Position numbers and translations under genes: made by a program
Shown: piece by piece, positions 14,339 through 34,327 of the stretch
Layout of the letters: each line of letters begins with the position of its first letter
Numbering within the stretch: position 1 is the first letter of the stretch
The notes under the pieces: model-generated
Databases searched by the model: none
What the model saw: the letters and a program-made list of their open reading frames with translations, nothing else
What the model was told of the DNA's origin: nothing
NCBI RefSeq assembly: GCF_041227145.1
Contig: NZ_JBGFSP010000012.1
Span: 171,181-235,180, forward strand
Source: Bacteroides sp. AN502(2024)
Lineage (GTDB): Bacteria > Bacteroidota > Bacteroidia > Bacteroidales > Bacteroidaceae
Length of the DNA: 64,000 nucleotides
Reading direction: 5' to 3'

Positions 14339-14379
14339 TAGATACTTAATTTGTTGATAATCAGAAGTAAAATGTGTCT

Positions 14380-14399
14380 GTTACTTCTTAGGTAACGGA
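14380..14399 (+). repeat. Left inverted repeat (recombination site) of the invertible promoter
   Basis: The 20 bases gttacttcttaggtaacgga are repeated perfectly in inverse orientation at 14651-14670. Each copy is itself a dyad, GTTAC-N7-GTAAC, as expected for two recombinase-binding arms around a 7-base crossover region (TTCTTAG). The asymmetric spacer would give the site a direction. Confidence 0.85.
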
Positions 14400-14650
14400 A
14401 CTTAAATTTGGTGCAAATATAGACAAAAACACGAATAGTTAGCAAATATTCTCCCATTTTTTTTCGTTTTATCTGAAACATAGAGCAAAAAACTATCTGA
14501 ACATGAAATAAGCTTATTTCCATGCTCTCTACTTTTTCATTGCCTAATTCAATCGTTTTCTTATTGAACATTAGGCTTTTCCATATTTCACGCCTTTGTC
14601 ATGTGTGTGATTTCTATTTTCATTGTAGTATGCGTTTCGTGTGTGTATAA
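14400..14650. promoter_or_regulatory. Invertible 251-bp promoter segment (phase switch), OFF orientation
   Basis: This AT-rich stretch lies between perfect inverted repeats, directly between the recombinase gene and upxY, and holds no gene. Its only strong promoter (14414-14446) reads leftwards. Inversion around the two repeats would move the -7 box to about 14629-14636, reading rightwards with upxY starting about 58 bases later. It therefore looks like the phase-variable promoter of the capsule operon, caught in the OFF state in this assembly. Inversion itself is inferred from the layout. Confidence 0.82.
14414..14446 (-). promoter_or_regulatory. Consensus promoter inside the invertible segment, pointing away from the capsule
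   Basis: On the minus strand TTTG (14443-14446) is followed after 21 bases by TATATTTG (14414-14421). This agrees with the Bacteroides -33/-7 consensus. Transcripts would run towards the 3' end of the recombinase gene, antisense to it. Confidence 0.78.
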
Positions 14651-14670
14651 TCCGTTACCTAAGAAGTAAC
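14651..14670 (-). repeat. Right inverted repeat (recombination site) of the invertible promoter
   Basis: tccgttacctaagaagtaac is the exact reverse complement of 14380-14399. It lies 23 bases upstream of the upxY start, so it remains in the leader of the capsule transcript in both orientations. Confidence 0.85.
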
Positions 14671-14693
14671 GGACTAGTATGGGGTAAAAAAGT

Positions 14694-15269
14694 ATGATTC
14701 TAACGCAAGAGACTTTAAGTGCTGGGCCTAGTAATGGGACAGGGGAAGGCGTAGCACACCCTAAACGCTGGTATGTCGCCTTGGTTCGTATGCATCATGA
14801 GAAGAAAGTGGCCGAGCGTTTAGGCAAGATGGGGATTGAAAATTTTGTACCGGTCCAGCAGGAAGTACATCAATGGAGCGACCGCCGCAAGGTGGTCGAA
14901 TGTGTGTTGCTTCCCATGATGGTTTTTGTACATGCGGATGGGAAAGAACGCAAAGAGGTCCTTTCCCTGTCTACGGTGAGCCGGTATATGGTCATGCGCG
15001 GTGAGAGCAGTCCTGCAGTAATTCCCGATGATCAGATGGCCCGTTTCCGTTTTATGCTCGACTATTCGGAAGAGTCGATCAGTATGAACAGTGCTCCCTT
15101 GGCACGTGGTGAGAAGGTCCGTGTCATCAAAGGTCCTTTGACGGGGCTTGTGGGCGAGCTTGTCACGGTTGGCGGCAAGAGTAAGATTGCTGTCCGTCTG
15201 AATATGCTGGGATGCGCCTGCGTCAATATGCCCATCGGTTATGTCGAAGCTGTCTGCGAGAAAAACTAA
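14694..15269 (+). CDS. UpxY-family transcription antiterminator (NusG-like)
   Basis: A 191-residue specialised NusG paralogue. The NGN domain (about 25-125) has RWYVALVRMHHEKKVAERL and the 'IENFVPVQQEVHQWSDRRK' stretch typical of UpxY. The C-terminal KOW motif is in RGEKVRVIKGPLTGLVGELV (about 139-158). UpxY proteins ride with RNA polymerase and prevent early termination in the leader of their own capsule operon. They are the first gene of such operons in Bacteroides. There is no UpxZ-like gene next to it, unlike the paired upxY-upxZ of B. fragilis. The start codon lies just after the right inverted repeat. Confidence 0.93.
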   Translation: MILTQETLSAGPSNGTGEGVAHPKRWYVALVRMHHEKKVAERLGKMGIENFVPVQQEVHQWSDRRKVVECVLLPMMVFVHADGKERKEVLSLSTVSRYMVMRGESSPAVIPDDQMARFRFMLDYSEESISMNSAPLARGEKVRVIKGPLTGLVGELVTVGGKSKIAVRLNMLGCACVNMPIGYVEAVCEKN

Positions 15270-15296: not shown

Positions 15297-16046
15297 ATGA
15301 ATACGAAATTATCCGGTGCTTTTGCACTGATACTCTTTTTCTTCTTTTTTTCGGCTTGCCAGTCTTATAAGAAAGTTCCTTATCTGCAGGATGCGGAGAT
15401 TTTGAAACAGGTGAATACGCAAGTGGTCCCTGTTCAGGACGCAAGGCTGATACCGGGCGATGAGGTTTCCATTCTTGTTTCCACTTCCGATCCGGTTGTT
15501 GCGCAGCCATTCAACGAACAAGGCAGTACGTTTTTACTGGATGATCAGGGAAACATCAATTATCCTGTTTTGGGTAAACTGCCTTTGAATGGTTTGACAA
15601 GTCGTGAAGTTGAAAACCTGATAACGGAGCGATTGAAATCTTACGTGAAAGAACGCCCTACGGTAGTGGTCCGTATGTCCGGTTTTAAAGTTTCTGTATT
15701 GGGCGAAGTGGCTTCCCCCGGTGTTTATCCGGTGGTGAATGAGCAGGTAAATGTGCTCGAGGTCCTTGCCATGGCAGGAGATTTGACTATTTATGGCGCC
15801 CGTGATAATGTAAAACTAATCCGCGAAGATAGGAACGGGCGTAGACAGTTCGTTACACTTAATCTGAACGATGCGGATTTGTTAGTATCTCCTTACTATC
15901 AGTTGCAACAGAATGATATCCTGTATGTCACTCCAAATAAAACCAAAGCGCGGAGTGCAGATATCGGAACAAGTACGACGATGTGGATTTCCGGCTTTTC
16001 CGTTCTGGTATCCATAGCCAGTTTGCTGGTCAATATACTTCGATAA
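15297..16046 (+). CDS. Wza-type polysaccharide export lipoprotein, first copy
   Basis: A 249-residue lipoprotein, lipobox SAC at Cys21, then CQSYKKVPYLQD. It has the Poly_export domain (GDEVSILVSTSDP, QGNINYPVLGKLPLNGLTS) and a SLBB domain (VSVLGEVASPGVYPV, LAMAGDLTIYGARDNVKLI). A C-terminal hydrophobic segment (WISGFSVLVSIASLLVNIL) may cross the outer membrane, as in Wza. It is a paralogue of the copy at 19831 with many identical stretches, including YYQLQQNDI and YVTPNKTKA. It is shorter by about 20 residues in the region between the two domains. No kinase gene follows it directly; the DUF4248/DUF3987 module does. Confidence 0.9.
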   Translation: MNTKLSGAFALILFFFFFSACQSYKKVPYLQDAEILKQVNTQVVPVQDARLIPGDEVSILVSTSDPVVAQPFNEQGSTFLLDDQGNINYPVLGKLPLNGLTSREVENLITERLKSYVKERPTVVVRMSGFKVSVLGEVASPGVYPVVNEQVNVLEVLAMAGDLTIYGARDNVKLIREDRNGRRQFVTLNLNDADLLVSPYYQLQQNDILYVTPNKTKARSADIGTSTTMWISGFSVLVSIASLLVNILR

Positions 16047-18430: not shown

Positions 18431-18452
18431 AAATGTAATGTATGATTTTAAT

Positions 18453-19685: not shown

Positions 19686-19830
19686 AATATGGACGTTTCT
19701 TTTGGATTTATATATCCTATATAGGACTGTGTATAACCTCATCCGTGGGGATAAAGAGGCTTATTAGGCGGAGAGCCGGAATTTGAATAAAGATGATATC
19801 AATAGTTGTAATTTACATGAGTGGGTGGTT

Positions 19831-20640
19831 ATGAGAAATTTGAAACGATTGACTTGGGGTGCGTTACTTGCTTTTGGGCTGGTATCCTGCCAATCATACA
19901 AGAAAGTTCCTTATTTACAGGATACGGCTTTTGTGAATAAGACAGAACAGCGTGTTCGTCAGACTGGCGTGAAGGTAATGCCCAAGGATTTGTTGACGAT
20001 TGCCGTGTCTTGTTCTACTCCGGAACTGGCTGCACCTTTCAATCTGGTGCATTCGGATAGGGATAGTAGAATAGAGAGAAAGACGACCGGACAAGAAACG
20101 GCGTCATCGGCTCTGCAACAATACCTGGTGGATAATCAGGGGAATATCAATTTCCCGGTGTTGGGTGAAATTCATGTAGGTGGACTGACCAAACCGGAAA
20201 TCGAAAACCTGATTATAGACAAACTGAAGGTTTATCTGAAAGAAGCACCGCTTGTTACCGTACGTATTGTTAATTATCGGATTTCGGTATTGGGAGAGGT
20301 TGCCAAGCCCGGTAGCTTTGTCGTTTCCAACGAGAAGATTAATCTCTTGGAAGCGCTCGCCATGGCAGGTGATTTGACCATTTACGGCATGCGTGATAAT
20401 GTGAAATTGATTCGGACCGGACTGGATCATAAACAGGAAATAATAACTTTTGATTTGAATAAGGCTGAAACGGTATTCTCTCCTTATTATCAGCTACAGC
20501 AGAATGATATTGTTTATGTGACGCCTAATAAGACGAAGGCGAAGAATTCGGATGTGGGGACTAGTACGGGATTGTGGTTCTCCGGTATTTCCATCTTAGC
20601 TTCACTTGCAAACATATTGGTAGTTTTATTAAATTTATAA
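19831..20640 (+). CDS. Wza-type polysaccharide export lipoprotein, second copy
   Basis: A 269-residue export lipoprotein from ATG 19831 (MRNLKRLTWG); an in-frame TTG 48 bases upstream would bury the signal peptide. The lipobox is LVSC at Cys20, and CQSYKKVPYLQD follows as in the first copy. It has a Poly_export domain, an extra linker (DRDSRIERKTTGQETASSAL) missing from copy one, and a SLBB domain (ISVLGEVAKPGSFVVSNEK). A C-terminal hydrophobic helix completes it. It ends 3 bases before the Wzc-type gene, so it is the working Wza partner: together they form the trans-envelope export channel and its polymerisation controller. Confidence 0.92.
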   Translation: MRNLKRLTWGALLAFGLVSCQSYKKVPYLQDTAFVNKTEQRVRQTGVKVMPKDLLTIAVSCSTPELAAPFNLVHSDRDSRIERKTTGQETASSALQQYLVDNQGNINFPVLGEIHVGGLTKPEIENLIIDKLKVYLKEAPLVTVRIVNYRISVLGEVAKPGSFVVSNEKINLLEALAMAGDLTIYGMRDNVKLIRTGLDHKQEIITFDLNKAETVFSPYYQLQQNDIVYVTPNKTKAKNSDVGTSTGLWFSGISILASLANILVVLLNL

Positions 20641-20643
20641 TCA

Positions 20644-23070
20644 ATGATGAAAGAAAACTCATACGACAATCCAATGAATGAACCGGAGGAAGATAAAGTT
20701 AATTATCAAGAACTTCTCTTTAAGTATATCATTCACTGGCCTTGGTTTGTAGCTTCTGTTCTAGCCTGTTTGATAGGTGCTTGGGTGTATTTGCATTTTC
20801 AAACTCCGGTGTATCAGGTTTCCGCCTCTATCATGATTAAGGATGATAAAAAGAATGGTGGTGGAAACGCTGCTGATTTGGAAAGTTTGGGATTTGGCGG
20901 AATGATTACTTCCGCACAGAGCATCGACAATGAGATAGAAGTATTGCGTTCAAAGACAATCTTGAAAGAGGTTGTCAATAATTTGGAACTTTATATTACT
21001 TATTATGATGAGGATGAATTCCCTAAAAAGGAGCTGTATAAAACCTCTCCAGTCATCGTGAGTCTGACGTCGCAAGAGGCGGATAAATTGGCAGGTACAG
21101 CCCTGGTTGATATGAAATTGGCTCCGGAAGGTGTTTTGGATGTGAGTGTAACGATAGGTCCGAATGAATATAAAAAGCATTTTGATAAACTTCCGGCAGT
21201 GTTGCCTACGGATGCAGGTACATTTGGTTTTGTATTGAAAGACTCTTTATTCAATGGGAAGATAGCAGGGCAAAGCGTGGAACGAAATATCAGCGCTGTA
21301 GTTAGCCGGCCATTTGAAACAGCCAAAGGTTATCAGTTGGCATTAAAAATAGAGCCTACCTCCAAAACAACTTCGGTAGCTGTTGTTTCATTGATGAATA
21401 CGAATATACAGCGTGGGGAGGATTTCATTAATAAGTTGATAGAGATGTACAATCGGAATACGAATAATGATAAAAATGAGGTTGCCGAAAAAACGAGAGA
21501 GTTTATCAATGAACGTATTCAGATTATCGATGAGGAACTTGGCACTACGGAGGATAAACTGGAAGCATTTAAAAGAAATGCAGGCTTGACGGATATCAGT
21601 AGTGATGCCCAATTGGCTATATCGGAAAATGCCGAATACGAAAAGAAACGGGTGGAAAACGGAACACAGATCAATTTAGTTCGTGATCTGACTAAATATA
21701 TCAATAATCCGTCGAATGAGTATGAAGTGTTGCCGAGTAATATTGGTTTATCTGATAATGGTTTGACTACTCAAATAGATCGTTATAATGAGTTGATTAT
21801 CGAACGCAAACGTTTACTTCGTACTTCTACGGAGAGTAACCCGATGATTGTAAATCTGGATACAAGTATTCGTGCCATGAAAGCAAATGTAAAAGCTGCC
21901 ATTGATGGGACTTTACAAGGCTTGCTCATCGTGAAGGCTGGTCTGGATCGTGAAGCTGGTCGTTTTTCCCGTCGTATCAGCGATGCTCCGGGACAGGAAC
22001 GTCAGTACGTCAGTATTGCCCGTCAGCAGGAAATCAAGGCGGGGCTTTATCTGATGCTCTTGCAGAAACGTGAAGAGAATGCTATCATGTTGGCTGCTAC
22101 TGCGAATAATGCGAAAATTATTGATGAGCCGGTAGCTGAAGGTGTCCTGGTATCTCCGAAACCTAAAATGATTTACATGATTGCTTTCGTGTTGGGAGTA
22201 GGTTTGCCTGTTGGCATTATTTTCCTGCTTGGGCTTACTAAATTCAAAATAGAGGGGCGTGCGGATGTCGAGAAATTGACAAGTTTGCCTATTGTGGGTG
22301 ATGTGCCGTTGACAGAAGAATCCCATGGTTCTATTGTTGTGTTTGAGAATCAGAATACTTTAATGAGCGAGACTTTCCGTAACATTCGTACCAATCTTCA
22401 GTTTATGCTTAATGGCGGTCAGAAAGTGATTCTGGTGACTTCGACAGTGAGTGGTGAAGGTAAATCTTTTATCTCTTCTAATTTGGCGATCAGTCTTTCT
22501 TTATTGGGAAAAAAGGTGGTCATTGTCGGTCTTGATATTCGTAAGCCCGGTTTGAATAAAGTTTTTAATATTCCGAGAAAAGATCCGGGAATTACTCAAT
22601 ATCTGTCGAATCCGGAAAATAATCTGATGGAATTTGTCCAGCCTTCGGATGTAAGCAAGAGTCTGTACATTCTTCCCGGTGGTACGGTTCCTCCCAATCC
22701 GACGGAATTGTTGGCTCGTGACGGTTTGGATAAAGCGATCGAAACATTGAAAAAGAATTTCGATTATGTCGTTTTGGATACTGCTCCAGTCGGTATGGTG
22801 ACGGATACTTTGCTGATAGGTCGTGTAGCCGATTTGTCTGTTTATGTATGTCGCGCCGATTATACCCACAAAGCAGAGTTTACGTTGATAAACGAACTGG
22901 CATCTGCCCATAAGCTGCCTACTCTTTGTACGGTAATAAACGGTCTTGATCTTCAGAAGAAAAAGTACGGTTACTATTATGGTTACGGTAAATATGGTGA
23001 GTATTATGGATATGGCAAAAGGCATGGCTACGGTTACGGTTATGGAGAGCATAAAGTAAAGGAAGAGTAA
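20644..23070 (+). CDS. Wzc-type polysaccharide co-polymerase with bacterial tyrosine kinase domain
   Basis: An 808-residue inner-membrane protein. The first membrane helix (about 31-50, WPWFVASVLACLIGAWVYL) is followed by a long periplasmic coiled-coil Wzz region. The second helix is near 510-532 (MIYMIAFVLGVGLPVGIIF). The cytosolic BY-kinase has Walker A STVSGEGKSF near 598, Walker A' VVIVGLDIRKPG near 628 and Walker B YVVLDTAPVGM near 707. The C-terminus is a tyrosine-rich tail (about 775-800, KKKYGYYYGYGKYGEYYGYG), the autophosphorylation cluster that sets chain length and export. It is translationally close to wza (3-base gap). A promoterless gap of 167 bases follows before the GHKL gene. 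Confidence 0.95.
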   Translation: MMKENSYDNPMNEPEEDKVNYQELLFKYIIHWPWFVASVLACLIGAWVYLHFQTPVYQVSASIMIKDDKKNGGGNAADLESLGFGGMITSAQSIDNEIEVLRSKTILKEVVNNLELYITYYDEDEFPKKELYKTSPVIVSLTSQEADKLAGTALVDMKLAPEGVLDVSVTIGPNEYKKHFDKLPAVLPTDAGTFGFVLKDSLFNGKIAGQSVERNISAVVSRPFETAKGYQLALKIEPTSKTTSVAVVSLMNTNIQRGEDFINKLIEMYNRNTNNDKNEVAEKTREFINERIQIIDEELGTTEDKLEAFKRNAGLTDISSDAQLAISENAEYEKKRVENGTQINLVRDLTKYINNPSNEYEVLPSNIGLSDNGLTTQIDRYNELIIERKRLLRTSTESNPMIVNLDTSIRAMKANVKAAIDGTLQGLLIVKAGLDREAGRFSRRISDAPGQERQYVSIARQQEIKAGLYLMLLQKREENAIMLAATANNAKIIDEPVAEGVLVSPKPKMIYMIAFVLGVGLPVGIIFLLGLTKFKIEGRADVEKLTSLPIVGDVPLTEESHGSIVVFENQNTLMSETFRNIRTNLQFMLNGGQKVILVTSTVSGEGKSFISSNLAISLSLLGKKVVIVGLDIRKPGLNKVFNIPRKDPGITQYLSNPENNLMEFVQPSDVSKSLYILPGGTVPPNPTELLARDGLDKAIETLKKNFDYVVLDTAPVGMVTDTLLIGRVADLSVYVCRADYTHKAEFTLINELASAHKLPTLCTVINGLDLQKKKYGYYYGYGKYGEYYGYGKRHGYGYGYGEHKVKEE

Positions 23071-23113
23071 ATAGCTGAAAAATATCATTGTTTGAGAAAA
23101 TATACTATTTTTT

Positions 23114-23136
23114 TCAAACTGCGCTTGGACGTTTAC
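23114..23136 (+). repeat. Orphan IS66-type end, direct copy of the end at 26327-26349
   Basis: These 23 bases (tcaaactgcgcttggacg then tttac) match the right end of the damaged IS66 element at 26327-26349 in 21 of 23 positions and in the same orientation. No transposase lies upstream of it. It is either a solo end left by an earlier IS66-type event or the boundary of a composite unit that includes the GHKL/STAS pair. Confidence 0.55.
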
Positions 23137-23200
23137 TGAATGCTTACAAACGGAATGATAATAAATAATGTAATGTAGATAATATAACCAAATAAATGAG

Positions 23201-23208
23201 TATATTTG
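23201..23208 (+). promoter_or_regulatory. -7 box of the GHKL/STAS pair
   Basis: TATATTTG, a consensus -7 box, 29 bases before ATG 23238. It suggests the pair is transcribed independently of the invertible capsule promoter. Confidence 0.45.
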
Positions 23209-23237
23209 CGTAGCGTTATGTAATTTATGTAAATGGT

Positions 23238-24104
23238 ATGATCCTAAGCTATACATTAGATAAAAGTAAAAGAGAATACTGGATAGAACAGATAAATTCT
23301 ATTCATACTCAAATATCAAAATTCTCACTTGCTTGTACTGTAGAATTAAATTTCTATAATATAAAAAAGGAGGAATTTACTCCAGTACATATTGTTTTAT
23401 TAGCGTGTCTATGCGAACATTTGCATCGGTTAAAATTTCATATAAAAGTTAACGCTAGTTCTGAAATCGTAGATTTCTTGAAAGAAGAACTTAAATTTCA
23501 TTTGTATTTTGATAACTCTAGCACTGAACATATTGAGTCAGAAAACAGTTCTATATTAAATTTGTGGAAAGTCGTAAAAAATAAAGCTCAGGGATATAGT
23601 ATAAGTGTTACAACCTTTTTCCGCAGAACATGTTTTGATGGGTATGATTTAACAGGACTTCAGACTTCATTGGATGAGATATATAACAATATTGCGGATC
23701 ATTCAGAGGCCAACGGGAATGCATTCTCTTATATTAGTTATGATAAGGAAAAGCACATGATTCATGTTGCTGCCTGTGACTTTGGGGTAGGTATTCCGTT
23801 TACATTAAAAAAAGCTGGATATAATTATGAAAATGATGCGGAAGCTATAAGACAATCTCTGGAAATAGGTGTTTCTGCAAAATCTCAAACGCATAACAAA
23901 GGTTTTGGATTGGATAATGTCACATCCAATCTTTCTGAGGGTGGTATGTTAAGAATGGTGAGTAATAGTGGTGTTGTATTTTGTACAAATGCCAAGAATA
24001 ATGTAAAACAGTATTTAATAGATTATAATTTTCAAGGGACTTTGGTCTTTTTTGATATATGTATAGATACATTTGAAGAGATGTTGGACGATATAATGAT
24101 TTAA
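23238..24104 (+). CDS. GHKL-fold ATPase (histidine-kinase-like, no kinase core)
   Basis: A 288-residue cytosolic protein. The C-terminal half has all GHKL ATP-site boxes: N box SLDEIYNNIADHSEA (about 150), G1 box ACDFGVGIPF (about 180) and G2 box NKGFGLDNV (about 221). There is no phosphoacceptor His/dimerisation helix and no membrane segment, so it is not a sensor kinase. The N-terminal ~130 residues are alpha/beta and unassigned. It ends one base before a STAS-like (DUF4325) gene. ATPase plus STAS pairs recall the anti-sigma/anti-anti-sigma partner switch (SpoIIAB/SpoIIAA), which is my working hypothesis. Its place between wzc and the sugar transferase is odd and looks inserted. Confidence 0.75.
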   Translation: MILSYTLDKSKREYWIEQINSIHTQISKFSLACTVELNFYNIKKEEFTPVHIVLLACLCEHLHRLKFHIKVNASSEIVDFLKEELKFHLYFDNSSTEHIESENSSILNLWKVVKNKAQGYSISVTTFFRRTCFDGYDLTGLQTSLDEIYNNIADHSEANGNAFSYISYDKEKHMIHVAACDFGVGIPFTLKKAGYNYENDAEAIRQSLEIGVSAKSQTHNKGFGLDNVTSNLSEGGMLRMVSNSGVVFCTNAKNNVKQYLIDYNFQGTLVFFDICIDTFEEMLDDIMI

Positions 24105-24105
24105 T

Positions 24106-24429
24106 ATGGAAAATGTAGTATTATTAAAAGACATTCTGAAGGATAATCAATATCCGGAAGCGGGCGTGTTATTATTTAAAATAGCAAAAGAGGCTATAGA
24201 TAATGGGGAGACCCTTATTTTAAATATGAGCGAGGTCGAATCTGTTCCAACTGTATTTATGAATACATCCTTTGGAGAACTTATTGCATCGTATGGAGCT
24301 GAAAAGATAAAGAAAGTTTTTCTTTTTAAAAGCATAACTAAAGCACAGATTCAAAGGATACGTAAGTATTTTGCAGATTATGAAAATATTGTTATGAAAA
24401 AAGAAAGATGCAGTCACGGTAATACATGA
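24106..24429 (+). CDS. STAS-like DUF4325 protein
   Basis: A 107-residue single-domain protein. The alternation of beta strands and helices (VLLFKIAKEAIDNGETLILN, MSEVESVPTVFMNTSFGELI) is that of DUF4325, a STAS-like family. VPTVFMNTSFGEL is the segment that in many members follows 'D...i.S.F'. In classic STAS antagonists a Ser here is phosphorylated; here T and S are available. It is a pair with the GHKL ATPase (1-base gap). The IS66 target site begins 7 bases after its stop, so the insertion did not cut the gene. Confidence 0.72.
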   Translation: MENVVLLKDILKDNQYPEAGVLLFKIAKEAIDNGETLILNMSEVESVPTVFMNTSFGELIASYGAEKIKKVFLFKSITKAQIQRIRKYFADYENIVMKKERCSHGNT

Positions 24430-24511
24430 GTATCGCTATGTACCGTAAGCAGTCAAAAAAAAGGCTATTGTTTGAAAGTTTTATCTTCGCTGCGACCAAA
24501 AAAATAGCATT

Positions 24512-24874
24512 ATGTATAGCAGTGAAGATCTTGAAAGGTTTTACTTTCAGTACCAGAGTGAGGCTTTGCCTCATGGAGAATCTCTCCAATCTTTTTGTGT
24601 TAAGCACAAAGTTCCTTATAACATTTTTCAAAAATGGTTTAAGGATACCCGTAAAAAAGTGGTTGAAGTCGAAGTTGAAGGTATTCCAGTTACCGATAGT
24701 GCGGAAGTTTCCAAGACTATCAGTCAAGCTCAGAGAGTGTCAAGAAGTAGTAGCGATACTCCTGTTCGTATTTGGATTGATATTCGCATAAGCAATGGTT
24801 TACATTTATCCCAAAAGAATTTAAGCTATCCGGATTTAGTCCGGATAGTAAAAAAATTGGAGGGCTTATGTTGA
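24512..24874 (+). CDS. IS66 accessory protein TnpA
   Basis: A 120-residue protein with an N-terminal helix-turn-helix (SLQSFCVKHKVPYNIFQKWF) and the C-terminal DIRISNGLHLSQKNLSYPDL, as in Bacteroides IS66 first-ORF proteins. The stop overlaps the start of tnpB by a few bases, the usual coupling in this family. It appears intact. Confidence 0.78.
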   Translation: MYSSEDLERFYFQYQSEALPHGESLQSFCVKHKVPYNIFQKWFKDTRKKVVEVEVEGIPVTDSAEVSKTISQAQRVSRSSSDTPVRIWIDIRISNGLHLSQKNLSYPDLVRIVKKLEGLC

Positions 24875-25203
24875 GTGTAACGGGTCTTAATCATTTTTAT
24901 TATGTCCGTGATTTTACCGATATGCGTTGTAAACACAGCCGGATTCTGTCCATCATTCGTGAGCGTCTTCACAGGGAGCCCAATGATGGTGATGTCTTTA
25001 TAGTCATGTCCCGTAACCGAAGAATCGTCCGCATGTTTTCATTCGATAACCGTTCATACAGCCTGTTCGAGAAGAAATTTGTAGCCGGTTATCAATTCAT
25101 GAAAGTAGATCGAAATGGAGTGGAGACTATCTATCGGATTGACTGGAAAGATGTAGTTTTAATTCTTGAAAGTCCTGTAGTTAAAATATTAAAAATCAGA
25201 TAA
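24868..25203 (+). CDS. IS66 accessory protein TnpB (Orf2)
   Basis: A 111-residue protein of the IS66 Orf2 family. LNHFYYVRDFTDMRCKHSRI corresponds to the usual 'v.l..g.tDmR.G..gL', and PNDGDVFIVMSRNRRIVRMF corresponds to 'p..g.lFvF.nr.r...K'. It overlaps tnpA by 7 bases. Length is normal for the family, and it appears intact. Confidence 0.82.
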   Translation: MLSVTGLNHFYYVRDFTDMRCKHSRILSIIRERLHREPNDGDVFIVMSRNRRIVRMFSFDNRSYSLFEKKFVAGYQFMKVDRNGVETIYRIDWKDVVLILESPVVKILKIR

Positions 25204-25275
25204 TTAGATTTATAGTTTGCTTGCAGTTTTGAGATTATTTCATTACCTTTAAAGCTGTAAATCAAAGGTTTAAGA

Positions 25276-26250
25276 ATGATCGAACTGCAAGATATAATTA
25301 CCGTCAAAAGGGAGTTGCTGAGTTGGGAAACCTACTCACGTAACCCAATAAATTATAGTGAAGGTATGTCAGCCGATCAAAAAGACCGTTATATTCAATA
25401 TCTTGCAGATCAGAATCATGATCTCCGTTTGTCAGGAGAGGCAATGAAGCTTGTTCTGGATGATTTTATGGTCAAAATACAGGAACTTGAAGGACAGATG
25501 TCTGCTGTAGTATCTAATCAAGCGTACTTGCAAAAAGAGCTTTCGTCAAAAAATAAATTATGCAAGTCTTTGGAGCGTCAGCTAAAATCGACTCAGGAAA
25601 AATTGTCATACGCTAACCAGCAGCTCTTCGGTGAGAGGCGTCAGAAGTTAAAGTCTAAAACGGCTAAAGGTAAGACTAATAAAGCGGATTCTGACCGGAG
25701 AAATGAAAAAGATGATTATAGTTCCGATGATGGCGAAACCCATCGTGATGCTGGTGGAGAGAAGTCTGCCATGGGTGACTGGGGGTGTCGAGCTTTTGTC
25801 AGAGATCCACTTGCCAGACTTTCCCCGATGAGATAAAGCTCAGGCGAAACAGGGTGGAGACATCTGCAATTATCATAGATCTCCAAAACAAGATAAGTGC
25901 TATGAAATTCGATGGTCATCTGTCGATGGACGGAAGCCTTCAAAAAGCTGTTGATTATCTCGATTCCTTCCGGCCACAGATAATGGCCTATCGGAACAAC
26001 GGGCGATACTCGATTGACAATAATATGGTCGACGGTTCATGAAACCGTCGGTAAACGGGAGGAAAAGCTCCTCCTTCTATGGAGCCGACAAGATGGCAAA
26101 CGTCTCAGCGGTGTATCATATCCTTATCTCACCCTGCAGACTGATGAAGGTGTACGTGTCCGAATACCTCAGCAAAGTGTTCGCCAAAATCGTGTGCGGC
26201 TGCACCGACTACAGCAGCATGCTCTCCATGAATATGGGTTTAAGTGTTAA
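25276..26250 (+). pseudogene. IS66 transposase tnpC with central deletion and frameshift
   Basis: The 5' part (25276 to about 25836) has the N-terminal coiled coil (QAYLQKELSSKNKLCKSLER, LSYANQQLFGERRQKLKS). The reading frame then shifts. The 3' parts hold only the end of the DDE domain (YRNNGRYSIDNNMVDG, then, after another one-base shift near 26037, VNGRKSSSFYGADKMANVSA and YLSKVFAKIV). IS66 transposases usually have about 450-530 residues; some 200 or more, including the zinc-finger region and the first catalytic Asp, are missing. It cannot be active. Confidence 0.78.
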
Positions 26251-26429
26251 TAACAACTAAATATTTAATGATAATAAAATTCTGGTTAGAGGTTAGCAAA
26301 CACTGAACCAGTGATTTACAACTTTATCAAACTGTGCTTGGACGCTTACCTATGAACGTAACTTGTTGATAAACAAGAGTGCGTCGTATGAGTGGGTTAC
26401 ATTTGATGTTAAAAGCTCATTTTTTTTCG

Positions 26430-27437
26430 ATGAACATTCAAATTATAACAATAAATGAGTGTGGCAATGACGGCTCATTTATCAATTTATATCGTAACGA
26501 ACAGATAGGGGCTTGGTGTGCATATGGCTATTCGGCATACGGTTTGCGGTTATTTAGCAAATCCAATGGATATAACAATTTGCGGAGTTTCTCAAAAGAT
26601 ATGCAGATGCCTTGTTCGATTATGGAAGATGCAACTCTTAAACCGTTATTGAAATATGCGGTAGAAGTTGTCGAACAAACAGACCTACATACACAGGTCA
26701 GAATGCCGAATAAAATAAATGAAGAAGCATATGCCAAATGGGTAAATAAATTAAAAACCAAGACTACTGATGATGACATCATTGTTTTTACACCGGTAAG
26801 TCAATATGTGCCCAAAGGTAGTTTTATTCCTGATCATATGTCGGCATTCACTCGGAATATTAAGCGTATAAGTGATTTTTTTCTCTCCTTTATCGCTTTG
26901 ATTGTATTTTCTCCGCTCTTTTTACTTTGCTATATAGCCGTTCGGAGGGAGGATGGAGGTCCGGCAATCTTCAAACAGGAACGTATCGGTCGTTTTGGTC
27001 GTCCGTTCTATATCTATAAATTTCGTTCGATGCGTCTTGATGCAGAGAAATTTGGTCCACAGTTGAGCCACAGTTGCGGTGATGACGATCCGAGACTGAC
27101 AAAGGTTGGACGCTTCATACGAGCACATCATTTGGATGAACTGCCCCAACTGTGGAATGTTTTTCGTGGCGATATGTCATTTATCGGACCGCGTCCAGAA
27201 CGAAAATTCTATATTGACCAAATATTGGAACATGACATTCGCTACAAATATCTCTATCAGATCCGTCCAGGAGTGACATCATACGCCACACTTTATAACG
27301 GTTACACCGATACGATGGAGAAGATGCTTCGCCGCTTGGAGTACGACTTGTATTATCTTGGACATCGTTCCTGGTGGTTTGATTTTAAAATTTTGGTAAA
27401 TACGTTTTGCTCAATTGTGTTCGGGAAGAAATTCTGA
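26430..27437 (+). CDS. Initiating sugar-phosphate transferase (WcaJ/bac_transf type)
   Basis: A 335-residue enzyme that loads the first sugar phosphate on undecaprenyl phosphate. The C-terminal bac_transf domain has one membrane segment (about 135-160, DFFLSFIALIVFSPLFLLCY), then IFKQERIGRFGRPFYIYKFR, TKVGRFIRAHHLDELPQLWN and FIGPRPERKFY. The catalytic Asp-Glu pair is in LDELPQ. The N-terminal ~125 residues (MNIQIITINECGNDGSFINL, GYSAYGLRLFSK) are soluble rather than the four extra helices of WcaJ, so this is a different architecture from the dead fragment at 19542. ATG 26430 is preferred; an upstream start at 26379 gives a poor extension. It lies right after the IS66 element. Confidence 0.9.
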   Translation: MNIQIITINECGNDGSFINLYRNEQIGAWCAYGYSAYGLRLFSKSNGYNNLRSFSKDMQMPCSIMEDATLKPLLKYAVEVVEQTDLHTQVRMPNKINEEAYAKWVNKLKTKTTDDDIIVFTPVSQYVPKGSFIPDHMSAFTRNIKRISDFFLSFIALIVFSPLFLLCYIAVRREDGGPAIFKQERIGRFGRPFYIYKFRSMRLDAEKFGPQLSHSCGDDDPRLTKVGRFIRAHHLDELPQLWNVFRGDMSFIGPRPERKFYIDQILEHDIRYKYLYQIRPGVTSYATLYNGYTDTMEKMLRRLEYDLYYLGHRSWWFDFKILVNTFCSIVFGKKF

Positions 27438-27452
27438 AAAACTGTGTGCTTC

Positions 27453-28574
27453 ATGGATAATACTCAAAAGAATAAGGTCCTTTTTGTCGCGACTGTGGTT
27501 AAAACACATATTATGGAATTCCATATTCCATACCTTAAAATGTTTAAGGATTATGGCTGGGAGACTTATGTTGCTGCAAAAAATGACTATGATAACCCTG
27601 AAGATTGCAATATCCCGTATTGCGATTATTATTATGATACCCCTTTTGAACGTTGCCCTCTAAAAGCCGCGAACATACGTGCTTATAAGACTCTGAAAAA
27701 AGTTATTGATGATAATAATTTTAACATAATTCATTGTCATACTCCAGTTGGAGCAATGATTAGCCGATTTGCAGCCATATCTGCAAGAAAAAGAGGAACG
27801 AAAGTGATATATACAGCTCATGGATTCCATTTTTTTAAAGGCGCACCTTTATTAAATTGGATTATATATTTCCCAGTTGAATGGCTCTGCGCTTTTATGA
27901 CAGATACACTAATTACGATAAATCAGGAAGATTATCAGTTTGCTGCAAAATACATACCCGCTCGTTCTGTTAAGTATATCCCGGGAGTGGGTATTGATTT
28001 GTCAAAATTTGCTCTACAGGCTATAGATATTGTAGCTAAGCGTAAAAGTCTATGTATTCCGAATGATAAAATATGGGTTATATCTGTTGGAGAATTGATT
28101 CCCCGTAAAAATCATGTCCGTTTGATTAAGGCTATTTCTGAAATTCCCGAAATCTATTTGACTATTGCAGGGCGAGGTGTTTTAAAGGGAGAATTAGACA
28201 CATTAATTAATCAACTGGGATTGAGTCATCGGGTAAAACTATTAGGTTATAGGTCTGACATACCAGAGTTGTGTACAGCTGCCGATATCTTTGCGTTTCC
28301 CTCTATGCAAGAGGGGTTACCCGTTGCTTTAATGGAAGCCATGGCCTGTAGTAAAGCGGTTGTATGCAGCCGAATCAGGGGATGTACCGATTTAATAGAT
28401 ACGCAAGGTGGCATATTGTTTAACCCACACCGTATAATTGACATAAAAGAAGCGATATTGACTTTATTGGAAAGCGATCGTACCGAAATGGGGACGTACA
28501 ATCACGCTGCTATTCAACAATATGACATAGCATGCATTATCAACCAAATGCAGGATATTTACAAACTACAATGA
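27453..28574 (+). CDS. Glycosyltransferase family 4, capsule repeat-unit synthesis
   Basis: A 373-residue GT-B enzyme from ATG 27453. The N-terminal domain has KVLFVATVVKTHIMEFHIPY and FNIIHCHTPVGAMISRFAAI. The C-terminal donor domain has ISVGELIPRKNHVRLIKAIS and the GT4 E-x7-E motif region FAFPSMQEGLPVALMEAMAC. It adds a sugar from a nucleotide donor to the lipid-linked unit at the cytosolic face of the inner membrane. It starts 15 bases after the transferase and overlaps the next gene by ATGA. N-terminal similarity is to EpsD/CapM-like enzymes; the sugar cannot be named. Confidence 0.9.
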   Translation: MDNTQKNKVLFVATVVKTHIMEFHIPYLKMFKDYGWETYVAAKNDYDNPEDCNIPYCDYYYDTPFERCPLKAANIRAYKTLKKVIDDNNFNIIHCHTPVGAMISRFAAISARKRGTKVIYTAHGFHFFKGAPLLNWIIYFPVEWLCAFMTDTLITINQEDYQFAAKYIPARSVKYIPGVGIDLSKFALQAIDIVAKRKSLCIPNDKIWVISVGELIPRKNHVRLIKAISEIPEIYLTIAGRGVLKGELDTLINQLGLSHRVKLLGYRSDIPELCTAADIFAFPSMQEGLPVALMEAMACSKAVVCSRIRGCTDLIDTQGGILFNPHRIIDIKEAILTLLESDRTEMGTYNHAAIQQYDIACIINQMQDIYKLQ

Positions 28575-29755
28575 TGGATCAAAGTATGGAAATAAAAATA
28601 GAATCAAGTGGAAATTCATATCTGGCTGTAGCCATGTTGATGCAAAGTGGAGAAGCTGGAGGTGTCCAGCGTATTATGATTAATTTGGCTAAAGGGCTTA
28701 TTATACATGGGGTAAACGTCAGTTTTTTAATTGGTGATGCTCGTGGAGAGATGATGCAAGAAATTCCATCCTGTTGTGAAATCATCAACTTTAATAAAAA
28801 ATTTTATCGAGGAGATGCCAAATTATTAGGGGCTTTATATGGCATATATAATTATATGCATAGTCACCCAAACACAGTTATTTTGGCAGCGCCAGGATTA
28901 GCAGGGACGCTGACCGCTTTTATAAAAGTATTTTGCAGACGGTTCAAAGTTATTTCAATTGTAGACAATCGTTGTACTTTATTAAAAGGCGGTAGTTTGT
29001 ACCACAAGGTGGTCTATTGTCTCAATAAATCATTGTTCGGATATTTGAATGCGATTATCGCTGCCCACTCATTAGCAAAAGAAGAGCAAATAAAATGTTA
29101 CAATATCCCTCCGTCAAGGGTTTATAAAATATACCATCCGTTAATATCTCCCATAGCAATAGAGAATACTGCGCCAGAAACGGAACATCCTTTTATCAAA
29201 GCTCGTAAATATGGGGTAAAATTGATGTTAGCAGTTGGCCGATTAGTCCCTGAAAAAGATTTTGCAACTTTATTAAAAGCATTTAACAAGGTCCGTCAAA
29301 ATAAAGACGCCAGATTGATTATTTTAGGAGACGGTCCACTCAGAAAAGGACTGGAAGAAATACGCCAGTCTAGTAGGTATGCTGACGATATCGATTTGTT
29401 AGGTTATACCAATAATGTCATCGGATTTATGAAAAGTGCTGACTTATTTGTACTTTCTTCAAAAGAGGAAGCATTTGGTAATGTGTTGATAGAAGCCATG
29501 TCCTGTGGACTTCCTTGTGTTGCTACGGATTGTGCGAGTGGAGGGCCAAGGGATATTATGGAAGGAGGTGACAAACGCTATGGCGCTTTGTGTCCCTGTC
29601 AAGATTCTCAGGCCCTTGCGGAAGGAATCCTTTCTACATTGGATAGGAAATATGACTCTTGTGTTATCAAAAAAAGAGCCGAAGTTTTTACAATCGCACA
29701 CTCAGCTGGCCTTTATTTGAAAGTTATAAAAAAATTAGTGAATGATCTATTCTGA
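28571..29755 (+). CDS. Glycosyltransferase family 4, second capsule enzyme
   Basis: A 394-residue GT4 enzyme. ATG 28571 overlaps the stop of the preceding gene (ATGA), favouring it over an upstream start. The glycine-rich acceptor loop is in QSGEAGGVQRIMINLAKGL. The donor domain has LAVGRLVPEKDFATLLKAFN, and FVLSSKEEAFGNVLIEAMSC is the E-x7-E region, followed by GLPCVATDCASGGPRDI. This pattern resembles GalNAc/Gal-type enzymes that use an undecaprenyl-linked acceptor. It ends 14 bases inside the next gene, so the block is tightly coupled. Confidence 0.9.
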   Translation: MMDQSMEIKIESSGNSYLAVAMLMQSGEAGGVQRIMINLAKGLIIHGVNVSFLIGDARGEMMQEIPSCCEIINFNKKFYRGDAKLLGALYGIYNYMHSHPNTVILAAPGLAGTLTAFIKVFCRRFKVISIVDNRCTLLKGGSLYHKVVYCLNKSLFGYLNAIIAAHSLAKEEQIKCYNIPPSRVYKIYHPLISPIAIENTAPETEHPFIKARKYGVKLMLAVGRLVPEKDFATLLKAFNKVRQNKDARLIILGDGPLRKGLEEIRQSSRYADDIDLLGYTNNVIGFMKSADLFVLSSKEEAFGNVLIEAMSCGLPCVATDCASGGPRDIMEGGDKRYGALCPCQDSQALAEGILSTLDRKYDSCVIKKRAEVFTIAHSAGLYLKVIKKLVNDLF

Positions 29756-31043
29756 AAGAGATACAATTGCGCCTAACATCATGGCATTTACGGCAATAGT
29801 GGCAGCTGTAGCATCACTCCTGTCGTTTGTTCTTCTCCAAAATGATGACTTTGGGTATGGTTTCTTTACGATGTTTATATGTACGCTCTTATTAGCTTTT
29901 TGTTCCAGAAAACATTCGATTATCTCACAACCTTTGGCAATTGCATTCATTTTTCGTATTGGATTCTGTTTATTATTATCCGTTAAAGGTGATGGTGATG
30001 CGGATAATTACGGGGTATATGCCGTGCATTTTGCAAATATGCCAATTACTGAGATTTTTTCCAATATTCCAACAGGGGCCTATTTTTACTCATGGCTTAT
30101 TAGCTTTTCATTCCGCCTATTTGGGGAAAATTATATGCCGATACGAGTTATAAATGCGACATTAAGTGTCTGTTGTGTTTGGATTATTGCTGACATTGCG
30201 TCATACTTATATAAAAATCCCAAAACGGTTATAAAAATCGCATGGATAGTAGCGGTATTCCCTAATTTGATCCGTTTCTCGAGTTATTTTGCTAATAGGG
30301 AAGTTATCCTGATGCTTTTTATGCTTCTATATATAAAGTATTCTTATCTATATTATAATCGCACCAACAATGGATATTTGCTTGTTTCGATATTGGCGCT
30401 CATTCCTTCAATGATATTACATACTTCCATGATTGCCATGATTTTACTTACAATATTAATCATATTATCAAAAGAGGGAAAAACGCAAAATAAAGGAACT
30501 AATTTTATTCGGGAAGCTTTTTTGACAATTGCCACAATTGCCGTATTCTTATATATGCTTTCCAGTGGTATTGGAATGGAGAAATTTAATATCGGAGGAG
30601 GTGTAGACCTAAATGTATCTTCTATTAGTAATATCGGCAATATGTCAGCCGTGGGGCGAGCGGCTTATCTTAGCGGAGTTACTTTTTCTAACCCTGTTTT
30701 GACGTTATTGTTCTTACCTGTCCGAGTGTTATATTTTTTATATACCCCATTTCCGTGGATGATACGTTCTGTTATAGATATTGTTGGATTCTTTGACGCG
30801 ATACTATATATATGGGCTTCTATTCCTATCTATAAGAAACTAAAGGAAATACACAGAAAAAGAAAAGGAAAAAGTCCGGATGAACGTTTTCTTCTGCTAT
30901 TATTCATTACTCTTGTCATCATTATAGCTATGTTTGCAGCTGTAACTTCCAATTATGGAACTGCAATCAGACATCGTTGTAAACTCATTCCTATTTTTCT
31001 ACTGATAGCAGCAGACTATATTAGACTACCTTTTAACAGGTAA
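29742..31043 (+). CDS. Probable capsule polymerase (Wzy-like multi-pass membrane protein)
   Basis: A 433-residue integral membrane protein with about 10-11 hydrophobic helices. A periplasmic loop after helix 3 has KGDGDADNYGVYAVHFANMP and GAYFYSWLISFSFRLFGENY. Conserved-looking ANREVILMLFMLLYIKYSY follows, and a large loop holds MEKFNIGGGVDLNVSSISNI. The locus has Wzx, Wza and Wzc and needs a polymerase; this is the only other many-helix protein, so the Wzy role comes from context more than sequence. A lipid-linked glycosyltransferase (GT39-like) is an alternative. Confidence 0.65.
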   Translation: MIYSERDTIAPNIMAFTAIVAAVASLLSFVLLQNDDFGYGFFTMFICTLLLAFCSRKHSIISQPLAIAFIFRIGFCLLLSVKGDGDADNYGVYAVHFANMPITEIFSNIPTGAYFYSWLISFSFRLFGENYMPIRVINATLSVCCVWIIADIASYLYKNPKTVIKIAWIVAVFPNLIRFSSYFANREVILMLFMLLYIKYSYLYYNRTNNGYLLVSILALIPSMILHTSMIAMILLTILIILSKEGKTQNKGTNFIREAFLTIATIAVFLYMLSSGIGMEKFNIGGGVDLNVSSISNIGNMSAVGRAAYLSGVTFSNPVLTLLFLPVRVLYFLYTPFPWMIRSVIDIVGFFDAILYIWASIPIYKKLKEIHRKRKGKSPDERFLLLLFITLVIIIAMFAAVTSNYGTAIRHRCKLIPIFLLIAADYIRLPFNR

Positions 31044-31104
31044 GACAACAGTCCGATTTTTTTTGAACATAGTTTTTATTCATGTTTCAATATTTGTTGT
31101 TTCC

Positions 31105-32064
31105 ATGAAAATTAAAGTGATTTCTCCATATTTCGGGAAATTTCCGCCTTTCTTTGACTTGTTTTTAGAAAGTTGTCGGTATAATCCCGAAATTACTTTC
31201 TTGATTTTTACAGATCAACACAATATTCCATTGTGTCCACCTAACGTTGAAATCTTCCAATGGCAGTTTTTTGATTTAAAAAAAATGATACAAGGAAAAT
31301 TGTCATTAAATATCAAAGCTATGTATGCTCTTTCTCCATATAAATTATGTGATTACAAACCTGCATATGGAAAACTATTTGAAGATTATTTGGAAGGTGC
31401 CGACTTTTGGGGATTCTGTGATATGGACTTGATATTCGGCAAGATATTCAATATCCTCTCGTTAGATAAATTGTCCCAAAGTGAACGTATATTAACGCAA
31501 GGGCATCTTACTTTTTATAAGAATAGCCATAAAATGAACATGATGTTCACAAGGGAACTCGAAAATGGTATTTCTTTCGCCCAAGCAATCTCTTTTAGTG
31601 AACCGGCTTTTTTTGATGAGATATTTATGCCGGAAATTTGTAAAGAGAATGATGTAATACAATATGGGGAGAATGTATTTGCTGATATATTACCACAATA
31701 TGCAACTTTTGTTGTGGCTCCTACATGTACCATAACCAATCGTGCCAAACAACGATTCTGTTGGAAAAATGGAAGATTATTTCAGATGTATCGGTCTGTT
31801 GATAGCGAGGAAACTTTATCTGAGATTATGTACATACATTTTCAGAAAAGGCCGTTAACACCATTTTATTCCCAATCAGATTTGAATGGAAAAGCACGTA
31901 TTTATTTCACACCTCAGGGTATTTTCCCAGACAGATTATATACGAATAATGTAGAAGAAAGCAATAAACTGCATGTAATAAATTACCACCGGAAAAGATG
32001 GCAATCTTTGACTTGGAGAAAAATATGGGTAAAATATAGGATCAATAAACTTTTAAGAAAATAG
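31105..32064 (+). CDS. DUF6625 protein, probable glycosyltransferase
   Basis: A 319-residue protein from ATG 31105 (MKIKVISPYFGKFP); the upstream TTG start adds a hydrophobic stub without family support. The motif FWGFCDMDLIFGKI (about 105-120) carries a DxD pair typical of GT-A metal-binding sites, and KAMYALSPYKLCDYKPAYGK precedes it. I recognise this as the DUF6625 family common in Bacteroides polysaccharide loci and presumed to be glycosyltransferases. A late His in MYIHFQKRPL is also typical. It lies between the polymerase and the pyruvyl transferase genes. Confidence 0.72.
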   Translation: MKIKVISPYFGKFPPFFDLFLESCRYNPEITFLIFTDQHNIPLCPPNVEIFQWQFFDLKKMIQGKLSLNIKAMYALSPYKLCDYKPAYGKLFEDYLEGADFWGFCDMDLIFGKIFNILSLDKLSQSERILTQGHLTFYKNSHKMNMMFTRELENGISFAQAISFSEPAFFDEIFMPEICKENDVIQYGENVFADILPQYATFVVAPTCTITNRAKQRFCWKNGRLFQMYRSVDSEETLSEIMYIHFQKRPLTPFYSQSDLNGKARIYFTPQGIFPDRLYTNNVEESNKLHVINYHRKRWQSLTWRKIWVKYRINKLLRK

Positions 32065-32069
32065 ACAAT

Positions 32070-33152
32070 ATGCAAGTCGGTATTTTGACATTTCATAAAA
32101 CGACCAATTATGGAGCAATCCTACAAGCATACGCATTGCAGAAGACATTGGAAAATGAGGGATTCAAGGTTTCTATCATTGATTATCATAATAACCGTAT
32201 ATACGGTTATTATGATTACAGAATAAGATCCTGTAATCATTATAAAACGATGATAGGAAAAATTATTCGCTATCATTACAATAAAGCAATATGGCTTCGT
32301 TTTGAGGCGTTTCGCCATAAACACATAAAATTATCGCCTTCTTGTCAAACTTTGAATGAATTACAGAATGTAGAATCAGTATATAATGCTGTGATTAGTG
32401 GTAGCGATCAGGTATGGAACCCAAATGCTATCTTTCAAGATTTTGACGCATACCTTCTTGGAACTGTTTCCTGTAAAAAAATAGCTTATGCAGCTTCAGC
32501 TGGAAATGTGATGTTATGGGAAAAATATTTAAAAACATATTGGAATTTACTTCATCGTTTCGATGCTATTTCTGTAAGAGAAGCAGATATGGTACATCCG
32601 GTCCGTGAATTATCTCAACAAGAAGTAACATTGGTATGTGATCCAACGCTTCTGCTTGAACAGTCTGATTGGGTCTCTATTGAGCAAAACGAGTTAAATA
32701 AGTCACTTCCGAACGGCTATATTCTTGTATATTTTTTAGGTAGAAATATATCCGTTCCGACTACAGCATTAGCCTTACAAAAAAAAACAGGATTGCCCAT
32801 TGTCTCTATCGGACGAAAGATTAAAGGAGCTTATCGGCCTAAAGTAGGACCGGCTGGCTTTCTCTCATTATTCCATCATGCAACCTACATTTTGACAAGT
32901 TCATTTCATGGAACAGTTTTTTCCATTCAATATCAGAAGCCGTTTTTAGTATTTGGTAATGGCGCATATAATTCACGTATGCACACATTACTTAATCATC
33001 TTAATCTTCAAGAACGGTTGATAACGAATAATTGTTCGATCGGTTCTATCTTATCAGATATTGATCAACCGATCGATTGGGAAAAGGTTGCTGTGTGTAG
33101 ATTTGAATTGAAAGGTCATTCAATTGGTTTTATAAAAAAATCGTTATCTTGA
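32070..33152 (+). CDS. Polysaccharide pyruvyl transferase family protein
   Basis: A 360-residue CsaB/WcaK-type enzyme that puts a pyruvate ketal from phosphoenolpyruvate on a capsule sugar. Marks: VGILTFHKTTNYGAILQAYA at the start, AVISGSDQVWNPNAIFQDFD near 110, YAASAGNVMLWEK, VREADMVHPV, CDPTLLLEQSDW and a C-terminal TSSFHGTVFSIQYQKPFLV with the conserved His. It ends one base before the Fe-S protein gene. Such pairs recur in Bacteroides and Firmicutes surface polysaccharide loci. If active, the capsule would carry an acidic pyruvate. Confidence 0.88.
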   Translation: MQVGILTFHKTTNYGAILQAYALQKTLENEGFKVSIIDYHNNRIYGYYDYRIRSCNHYKTMIGKIIRYHYNKAIWLRFEAFRHKHIKLSPSCQTLNELQNVESVYNAVISGSDQVWNPNAIFQDFDAYLLGTVSCKKIAYAASAGNVMLWEKYLKTYWNLLHRFDAISVREADMVHPVRELSQQEVTLVCDPTLLLEQSDWVSIEQNELNKSLPNGYILVYFLGRNISVPTTALALQKKTGLPIVSIGRKIKGAYRPKVGPAGFLSLFHHATYILTSSFHGTVFSIQYQKPFLVFGNGAYNSRMHTLLNHLNLQERLITNNCSIGSILSDIDQPIDWEKVAVCRFELKGHSIGFIKKSLS

Positions 33153-33153
33153 T

Positions 33154-34320
33154 ATGCAGTCTTCAAAAAAAAGAATTGTATTGCCTCTTGAATCGTGTGT
33201 CGGGTGTTCTGCTTGTATGGCAATCTGCCCCAAACAGTGCATTTCAATGCAACCGGACAACAAAGGTTTTTTAAGGCCTGTAATTGATTCAGGTATTTGT
33301 ATTTCATGCAAATCGTGCCTACGGATTTGCCAAGCGGAAGGGAAGCACACAAAAACACTCCCATCAACTGTACTTGCTGCAAGAATAATCGATAACGGTG
33401 TGTTATCAAATAGTTCTTCTGGAGGAATTGCATGGATACTCTCAAAGCACATCCTACAACAAGGAGGAGCCGTTTACGGAGCTGCGTTTGATGAAAATAT
33501 GACAGTAAAACATATCCGTGTAGAAAATGAGTCTGAATTATATCGGTTACAAGGTAGTAAATATGTACAAAGTGATATAACAAATATATATGCTCTTATC
33601 AAACAGGATTTGTCTAATGGTATACAGGTTCTCTTTATAGGAACACCATGCCAAGTAGCAGCGATCAAGAAAGTGTTTCTTAATACCGGCAAGCAATTGT
33701 TGACATGCGATTTGATCTGCCATGGCGTCCCGAGTCCTCGTTTATTTGCAGATCATATAAGAGCGATAGAAACTTCTTTTTCAAAAAAGGTTGCAGATTA
33801 TCGATTTAGGGATAAAGTTTTTGGTTGGAATTATAATATTAACCGTATAATTTTTAAAGATGGAGGTTCGTCAATACATTCATATTGGACTCAGTGCTAT
33901 AAACGCCTGTTCTTTAGCAATTATGGGCTTAGAGATAGTTGCTATATATGCAAATACAGCAGTCTATCACGACAGGGTGATATTACATTAGGGGACTATT
34001 GGGGCATTAATCAAGTTTCGGATATCTTTAAAGATAATAAAGGCGTGAGCGTTGTATTTGCCAACACATCAGAAGCAAAAAAATTAATGGATATAATAAA
34101 AGGACATTGTACTTATATTGAAACATCTTTGTCAAAGGCATTACAAATGCAGTTGATTATGCCAGTGCAACGTCCTAAGCGAATTGATGCATTTTGGAAT
34201 ACGTATTATAAGACTTCGTATAAGGAGACCTGCTATAAATTTGCCGGGAAACGTATCTTTCTTACCATCAGAAATCTCATTAAAGACCTCATTGTAAAAT
34301 ATAAACTAATACATATTTAA
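33154..34320 (+). CDS. Iron-sulfur / coenzyme F420 hydrogenase beta-subunit-like protein
   Basis: A 388-residue protein. Two 4Fe-4S cluster motifs sit at the N-terminus: CVGCSACMAICP (about 11-22) and CISCKSCLRICQ (about 48-60). A FrhB-like FAD domain follows (SSSGGIAWILSKHIL, FIGTPCQVAAIKK, ICHGVPSPRLF), with a further Cys pair (DSCYICKYSSLSRQGDITLG). Bacteroides lack F420, so the name describes homology only. In polysaccharide loci these proteins travel with pyruvyl transferases, probably as redox modifiers of a sugar, but the reaction is unknown to me. Confidence 0.85.
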   Translation: MQSSKKRIVLPLESCVGCSACMAICPKQCISMQPDNKGFLRPVIDSGICISCKSCLRICQAEGKHTKTLPSTVLAARIIDNGVLSNSSSGGIAWILSKHILQQGGAVYGAAFDENMTVKHIRVENESELYRLQGSKYVQSDITNIYALIKQDLSNGIQVLFIGTPCQVAAIKKVFLNTGKQLLTCDLICHGVPSPRLFADHIRAIETSFSKKVADYRFRDKVFGWNYNINRIIFKDGGSSIHSYWTQCYKRLFFSNYGLRDSCYICKYSSLSRQGDITLGDYWGINQVSDIFKDNKGVSVVFANTSEAKKLMDIIKGHCTYIETSLSKALQMQLIMPVQRPKRIDAFWNTYYKTSYKETCYKFAGKRIFLTIRNLIKDLIVKYKLIHI

Positions 34321-34327
34321 GATCATA

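Follow-up and report, generated by a model that had tools for sequence, protein, structure and literature searches.

At the CPS1 locus of Bacteroides xylanisolvens, the accessible part of PMC12118408 describes a 20-bp repeat, GTTACTTCTTAGGTAACGGA, and a 290-bp region with an integrase gene upstream and a capsule operon downstream, for which inversion was seen in long reads. According to the same portion of that report, the repeat recurs at other loci and capsule operons of B. thetaiotaomicron have near-identical repeats; it also describes GTTAC...GTAAC repeats near integrases at the S-layer/OmpA switches of the latter species. For the invertible capsule promoters of B. fragilis (Mpi) and B. 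intestinalis, the available text of PMC8375218 gives the repeats ARACGTTCGTN and GTTCGTTTAA. Here we describe a candidate switch at positions 14380–14670 of the window, the whole stretch of 64,000 nucleotides analyzed from Bacteroides sp. AN502(2024). Judging from its sequence, it is very probably a phase-variable capsule switch, in which a promoter segment lying before upxY would be flipped by the adjacent recombinase, perhaps together with three paralogues.

Anatomy of the candidate switch

Recomputation returned the repeats as an earlier note on this DNA had given them: perfect over 20 bp (GTTACTTCTTAGGTAACGGA; 14380–14399 and 14651–14670), with 251 bases between the arms, and each containing GTTAC-N7-GTAAC. 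The spacer, read inward, is TTCTTAG in both arms, which extend to 24 nt at 96% complementarity (one mismatch; 14376–14399 and 14651–14674). From outer edge to outer edge the paired 17-bp sites measure 291 bp, in keeping with the ~290 bp of capsule switches, and the left site lies 41 nt past the stop codon of the recombinase gene (14338). Two other marks of a capsule switch, an adjacent tyrosine recombinase gene and a downstream capsule operon headed by upxY, are also present; Pfam matches on both flanking genes agree with the placement of the repeats in the earlier note (Table 1). Eight plasmid records matched, the best being a B. finegoldii record (76.6% over 99% of the recombinase-to-upxY region).

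Table 1. Features of the candidate capsule switch and its surroundings (positions in the window)
Feature	Position	Strand	Basis
Tyrosine recombinase, 314 aa; likely invertase of the segment	13394..14338	+	Pfam Phage_int_SAM_5 and Phage_integrase
Left recombination site, 24 nt	14376..14399	+	Perfect 20 bp at 14380–14399
Left-site 7-base spacer TTCTTAG; probable strand-exchange region	14385..14391	+	Spacer agreement in 102/102 pairs
Segment between the 17-bp sites, 257 bp	14397..14653	.	Promoter end left = OFF; flipped relatives
-7 element TATATTTG	14414..14421	-	Reads towards recombinase; matches consensus TAnnTTTG
-33 element TTTG	14443..14446	-	21 bases from -7 element; matches consensus
Conserved dyad GAACATGAAATAAGCTTATTTCCATGCTC; may be an operator or an accessory site in recombination	14499..14527	.	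60/61 class segments, fixed position
Right recombination site, 24 nt	14651..14674	-	Perfect 20 bp at 14651–14670; spacer 14659–14665
upxY, NusG-like; first gene of the switched operon	14694..15269	+	Pfam NusG
Polysaccharide export protein	15297..16046	+	Pfam Poly_export
Capsule genes	19783..35767	+	Pfam on some genes

Bacteroides promoters consist of a -33 element, TTTG, and a -7 element, TAnnTTTG. A predicted promoter of this form lies inside the segment on the minus strand (14446–14414), as in capsule switches. The earlier note had reported a full -33/-7 promoter without its direction; since it faces the recombinase gene rather than upxY, the sequenced state is taken to be OFF for upxY. A second -7-like match, TAAATTTG, was found on the plus strand (14403–14410), with no TTTG 19–21 bases upstream of it. 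The geometry, in which the promoter converges on the recombinase gene, is compatible with antisense silencing of that gene from the OFF promoter; this is kept as an idea only.

The recombinase departs from the textbook tyrosine-recombinase catalytic set, which weighs against the proposed reading; such departures are usual in tyrosine recombinases of the Bacteroidota. According to Pfam, the products of the main capsule region include a second export protein, Wzz/AAA, sugar transferases, a pyruvyl transferase and a flippase-type polysaccharide synthesis protein; a Pfam scan of the proteins at 23238 and 25276 in this region gave no match. Antisense DUF3987/PriCT_2 and BT4734-like_N genes (16598–19175, minus strand) split the first export gene from the remaining capsule genes, which start with the second export gene at 19783. 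Past the capsule genes lies an AAA ATPase gene (AAA_15/AAA_21; 37013–38167, minus strand).

Matching site pairs in the genome and the genus

GTTAC-N7-GTAAC occurs 24 times in the genome, against 11 for the reversed control. Run as the earlier note had suggested, a genome-wide search for pairs showed that 18 of the 24 sites make nine inverted pairs with 255–268 bases inside. Four of these share an identical 17-bp site with the spacer TTCTTAG, and each has its own adjacent recombinase and upxY downstream; the 14380–14670 switch, L005 and L011 are OFF, and L010 is ON. The recombinases at the three other loci are 92.9%, 93.8% and 66.6% identical to the 13394–14338 product. The five remaining pairs, all OFF, have the spacers TCTGTAG, TTCGTAG, TTTGTAG (twice) and TTAGTAG and recombinases 37–40% identical to the same product. 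Behind them lie large lipoprotein-like proteins or, at L008, a DUF3575 gene. The one large protein scanned, that of L009, had no Pfam match, and its neighbor belongs to the OmpA family; the S-layer label used below rests on the accessible part of PMC12118408 and on general background.

A two-site pattern with 240–270 bases inside was then sought in 149 genomes of the genus, the present one included. It was found in 27, with nine pairs in the present genome and 110 summed over 26 relatives, compared with none in any of the 149 genomes for the reversed pattern, so that the pattern is more than chance. Of the relatives' 110 pairs, 75 were listed and analyzed; the 119 pairs comprise the nine, these 75, and 35 from 38 further loci (none in L036, L053 and L055). 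Paired 17-mers were allowed up to 3 mismatches, and all 75 listed loci passed. Removal of 13 pairs with identical segments left 106 distinct pairs. Class membership was decided by which of three recombinases from this genome gave the best match. In 103 of the 106 a recombinase is found no more than 150 bp away (61 pairs of the capsule class, 37 of the S-layer class and 5 of the fimbria class), and in 102 pairs its matched end is 7–82 nt from the site. L022–L026 combine a capsule-class recombinase and a TTCTTAG switch ahead of similar genes; those behind L026 are YjbH-like, with no upxY match.

If strand exchange required homology, the two spacer copies of a pair should agree. They do so in all 102 distinct pairs that have both full flanks and a recombinase next to them (L027 is omitted, as its flank is cut by a contig end), and the first base outside the arms differs between copies in 59 of the 102. 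By class, agreement is 37/37 for S-layer pairs (shuffled mean 8.4, maximum 19, in 10,000 shuffles). It is 60/60 for capsule pairs (shuffled mean 52.4, maximum 58), a test that is weak alone because most members have one common spacer, TTCTTAG being found in 56 of the 60 pairs with full flanks, and 5/5 for fimbria pairs, where shuffles also reach 5 and the count is no evidence alone. Three site pairs, L117, L171 and L186, have no recombinase match next to them; the last two have equal spacers, and L117, which may be locked, has the sole unequal pair (TTCATAG/TTCGTAG). Since spacers agree within pairs yet vary between loci, crossover at the spacer is supported. The agreement is what homology-requiring exchange within GTTAC-N7-GTAAC would predict and supports such exchange, in a comparison that does not separate it from shared descent of the copies. 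The proposal in the earlier note that TTCTTAG is the crossover site is thus strengthened by the 102 agreeing pairs, with its exact placement prevented by the invariant arms.

Which enzyme acts on the segment is less firmly indicated. Four loci of the genome carry the identical site next to a recombinase of their own, so that the neighbor is a likely enzyme, but neither a one-to-one assignment nor the self-contained status given in the earlier note follows, the same site recurring at three more loci with related recombinases. Alternatively, the four identical capsule sites could all be served in trans by one recombinase or by several, with the neighboring gene not the dedicated enzyme of this segment, a possibility that we take seriously but hold to be short of probable. 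The occurrence of one 17-bp site, within a single genome, beside recombinases 66.6–93.8% identical to the 13394–14338 product, and the prevalence of TTCTTAG throughout the capsule class, are what trans action would lead one to expect. Against it, a recombinase adjoins nearly every distinct pair (103/106), suggesting that local action has been kept, and the only pair with unequal spacers is among the three that lack one.

A conserved dyad within capsule-class segments

Alignment of the 61 capsule-class segments in the OFF orientation revealed a conserved mid-segment block. At a threshold of at least 14 of 18 positions, with motif and threshold chosen after viewing these same segments, GRRCATGAA-N9-12-TTCATGYYC is present in 60 of 61 (shuffled mean 2.65, maximum 5, in 20 base-shuffle rounds); a stricter first form, with two exact CATG at a set spacing, was present in 49. 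Measured from the site on the promoter side, the dyad starts at 99–103 bases in 53 segments and at 90–92 bases in seven. Its center is 97.5–101 or 88.5–90.5 bases from the -7 element, which places it ~103 bp upstream of the inferred start in the 53 and ~93 bp upstream in the seven. Because six of the seven shorter spacings come from one 203-bp segment type, the one-turn difference is suggestive only.

With at most one mismatch, 34 of 37 dyad places in 15 relatives lie inside a site pair, and matches to the reversed control there numbered 4 forward and 1 reverse, about equal to the 3 places outside pairs. Perfect dyads number 30 over the 158 genomes obtained for the genus, in which the reversed control found none; 29 are inside a site pair, and the remaining one falls within an open frame at a distance of 2 kb from a site. 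G092 and G106, which account for two of the 29, are genomes that contributed no segment to the 61. In the present genome, the dyad occurs with at most one mismatch only in the 14380–14670 switch and L010; the form in L005 and L011 is more diverged.

The dyad is found in 44/45 segments with upxY downstream and in 15/15 with no upxY match downstream (L027 is cut by the contig end). Scanned targets without upxY are YjbH-like (L026), DUF3575/DUF3868 (L048) and export-protein-first (L037). It is absent from all 37 S-layer-class and all 5 fimbria-class segments, including L008, which has a DUF3575 target as does the dyad-bearing L048. The dyad thus goes with the class of recombinase and not with the kind of target, the fimbria comparison being small. 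As the promoter also follows class, roles in transcription and in recombination are not separated by this pattern.

L154 is a capsule-class switch without the dyad. Its promoter half is 82–86% like the S-layer class over 50–61 bases and 78–80% like the capsule class, possibly through exchange between classes. S-layer-class segments have a GC-rich imperfect dyad of their own, CCTCTGC..GCAGGGG. It lies ~166 bases from the site on the promoter side, as in L115, and a loose pattern finds it in 33/37 S-layer-class and 0/61 capsule-class segments.

Lying within a flipping segment, the conserved dyad may be a control site. A more speculative reading, less likely than not, is that each class has its own accessory site in the flipping segment and that the capsule-class dyad, ~93 or ~103 bp upstream of the start, is bound by a dedicated protein through which a cell signal would govern inversion or the activity of the promoter. 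The dyad, kept at two positions one helical turn apart, would then be a class-wide control point resembling a recombination enhancer or a class I activator site. No mention of the dyad was found in the searchable texts, a scope that most subscription papers fall outside, and the accessible parts of PMC8042965, PMC10994844, PMC7366714 and PMC12596196 contained nothing on it.

It is unlikely that the dyad is instead an RNA hairpin or terminator. Position 2 shows covariation of the dyad halves (53 equal, 38.3 expected, n = 60), and position 3 shows none that is clear (31 equal, 26.7 expected); at the latter, A on the left with G on the right, a combination that would break the pair, is common. 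T-followed hairpins on the recombinase-facing (OFF) strand exceed shuffles (16/61 versus 7.8 at -6 kcal; 11 versus 3.7 at -8), and several are the dyad itself; however, the dyad lies upstream of the promoter and hence outside that promoter's transcript, and it is not the best-scoring hairpin in the 14380–14670 switch. A separate candidate, an in-segment terminator insulating upxY in the OFF state (a suggestive hairpin at ~14545–14580), was dropped as a class feature: target-facing hairpins of this kind number 10/61 in capsule-class segments at -6 kcal (shuffles 7.8) and 7 at -8 (shuffles 3.7).

Orientation and proposed inversion

Scored by promoter motif, with two ambiguous cases settled by dyad position, 98 of the 103 pairs with an adjacent recombinase are OFF and five, all of the capsule class, are ON. 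Several segments match only when one is flipped. L027 and L028 agree at 247/255 positions after inversion versus 143/272 without (recombinase regions 914/979), L136 and L164 match at 96.9% when inverted, and the 14380–14670 switch matches L010 of the same genome at 210/259 inverted and 156/291 not. Both orientations are thus seen between relatives, and the assembly of this strain is OFF. These flipped matches, the anatomy of the locus and the inversion published for the identical repeat in another species, as given in the accessible part of PMC12118408, support the view of the earlier note that this is an invertible capsule promoter.

We infer that the 14380–14670 segment inverts in this strain, with the neighboring recombinase, perhaps joined by its three paralogues, as the agent. 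The recombinase would bind the GTTAC arms of the two inverted sites, and strand exchange within the 7-base TTCTTAG spacer would flip the 257-bp segment. With the segment as sequenced, the promoter faces the recombinase gene and upxY is OFF; flipping would turn that promoter towards upxY, which it would then drive together with the capsule genes. A relic frozen OFF in this strain is very improbable even with 98 of 103 pairs OFF in assemblies, as the 314-aa frame is intact with both Pfam domains, the sites are perfect, L010 is ON in the same genome, and mostly OFF assemblies would be expected if each cell expresses few capsules, as in the account given in the available portions of the papers.

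Relation to known switches

The Mpi type can be set aside: Mpi of B. fragilis is a serine recombinase, whereas this switch adjoins a tyrosine recombinase, and its repeat is GTTAC-N7-GTAAC rather than of the ARACGTTCGTN type (PMC8375218, as far as accessible). By description, it resembles Tsr19 of B. fragilis, a tyrosine recombinase that inverts a large-capsule promoter found OFF in three sequenced genomes (PMC3090145, in part). The S-layer/OmpA switches have their counterpart in the five S-layer- or fimbria-like pairs of this genome, which differ in their recombinases (37–40% identical), in their spacers and in lacking the GRRCATGAA dyad. Also alike by description are the CPS1, CPS3, CPS5 and CPS6 promoters of B. 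thetaiotaomicron, with the repeat CCGTTACCTAAGAAGTAAC and an adjoining tyrosine-type invertase (PMC12118408, accessible part).

Switches of the published group determine the capsule worn by a gut Bacteroides, and hence its encounters with phages and the host. The dyad, if functional, would offer one handle on the whole switch class, and the common TTCTTAG site predicts cross-talk between capsule loci within one genome. The accessible part of PMC12118408 mentions neither an internal dyad nor a spacer comparison. The closest likeness is to the B. xylanisolvens CPS1 promoter described there, which has the identical 20-bp repeat in another species and at another capsule locus; on that account this type of switch is known from print, with the 14380–14670 locus as a further member.
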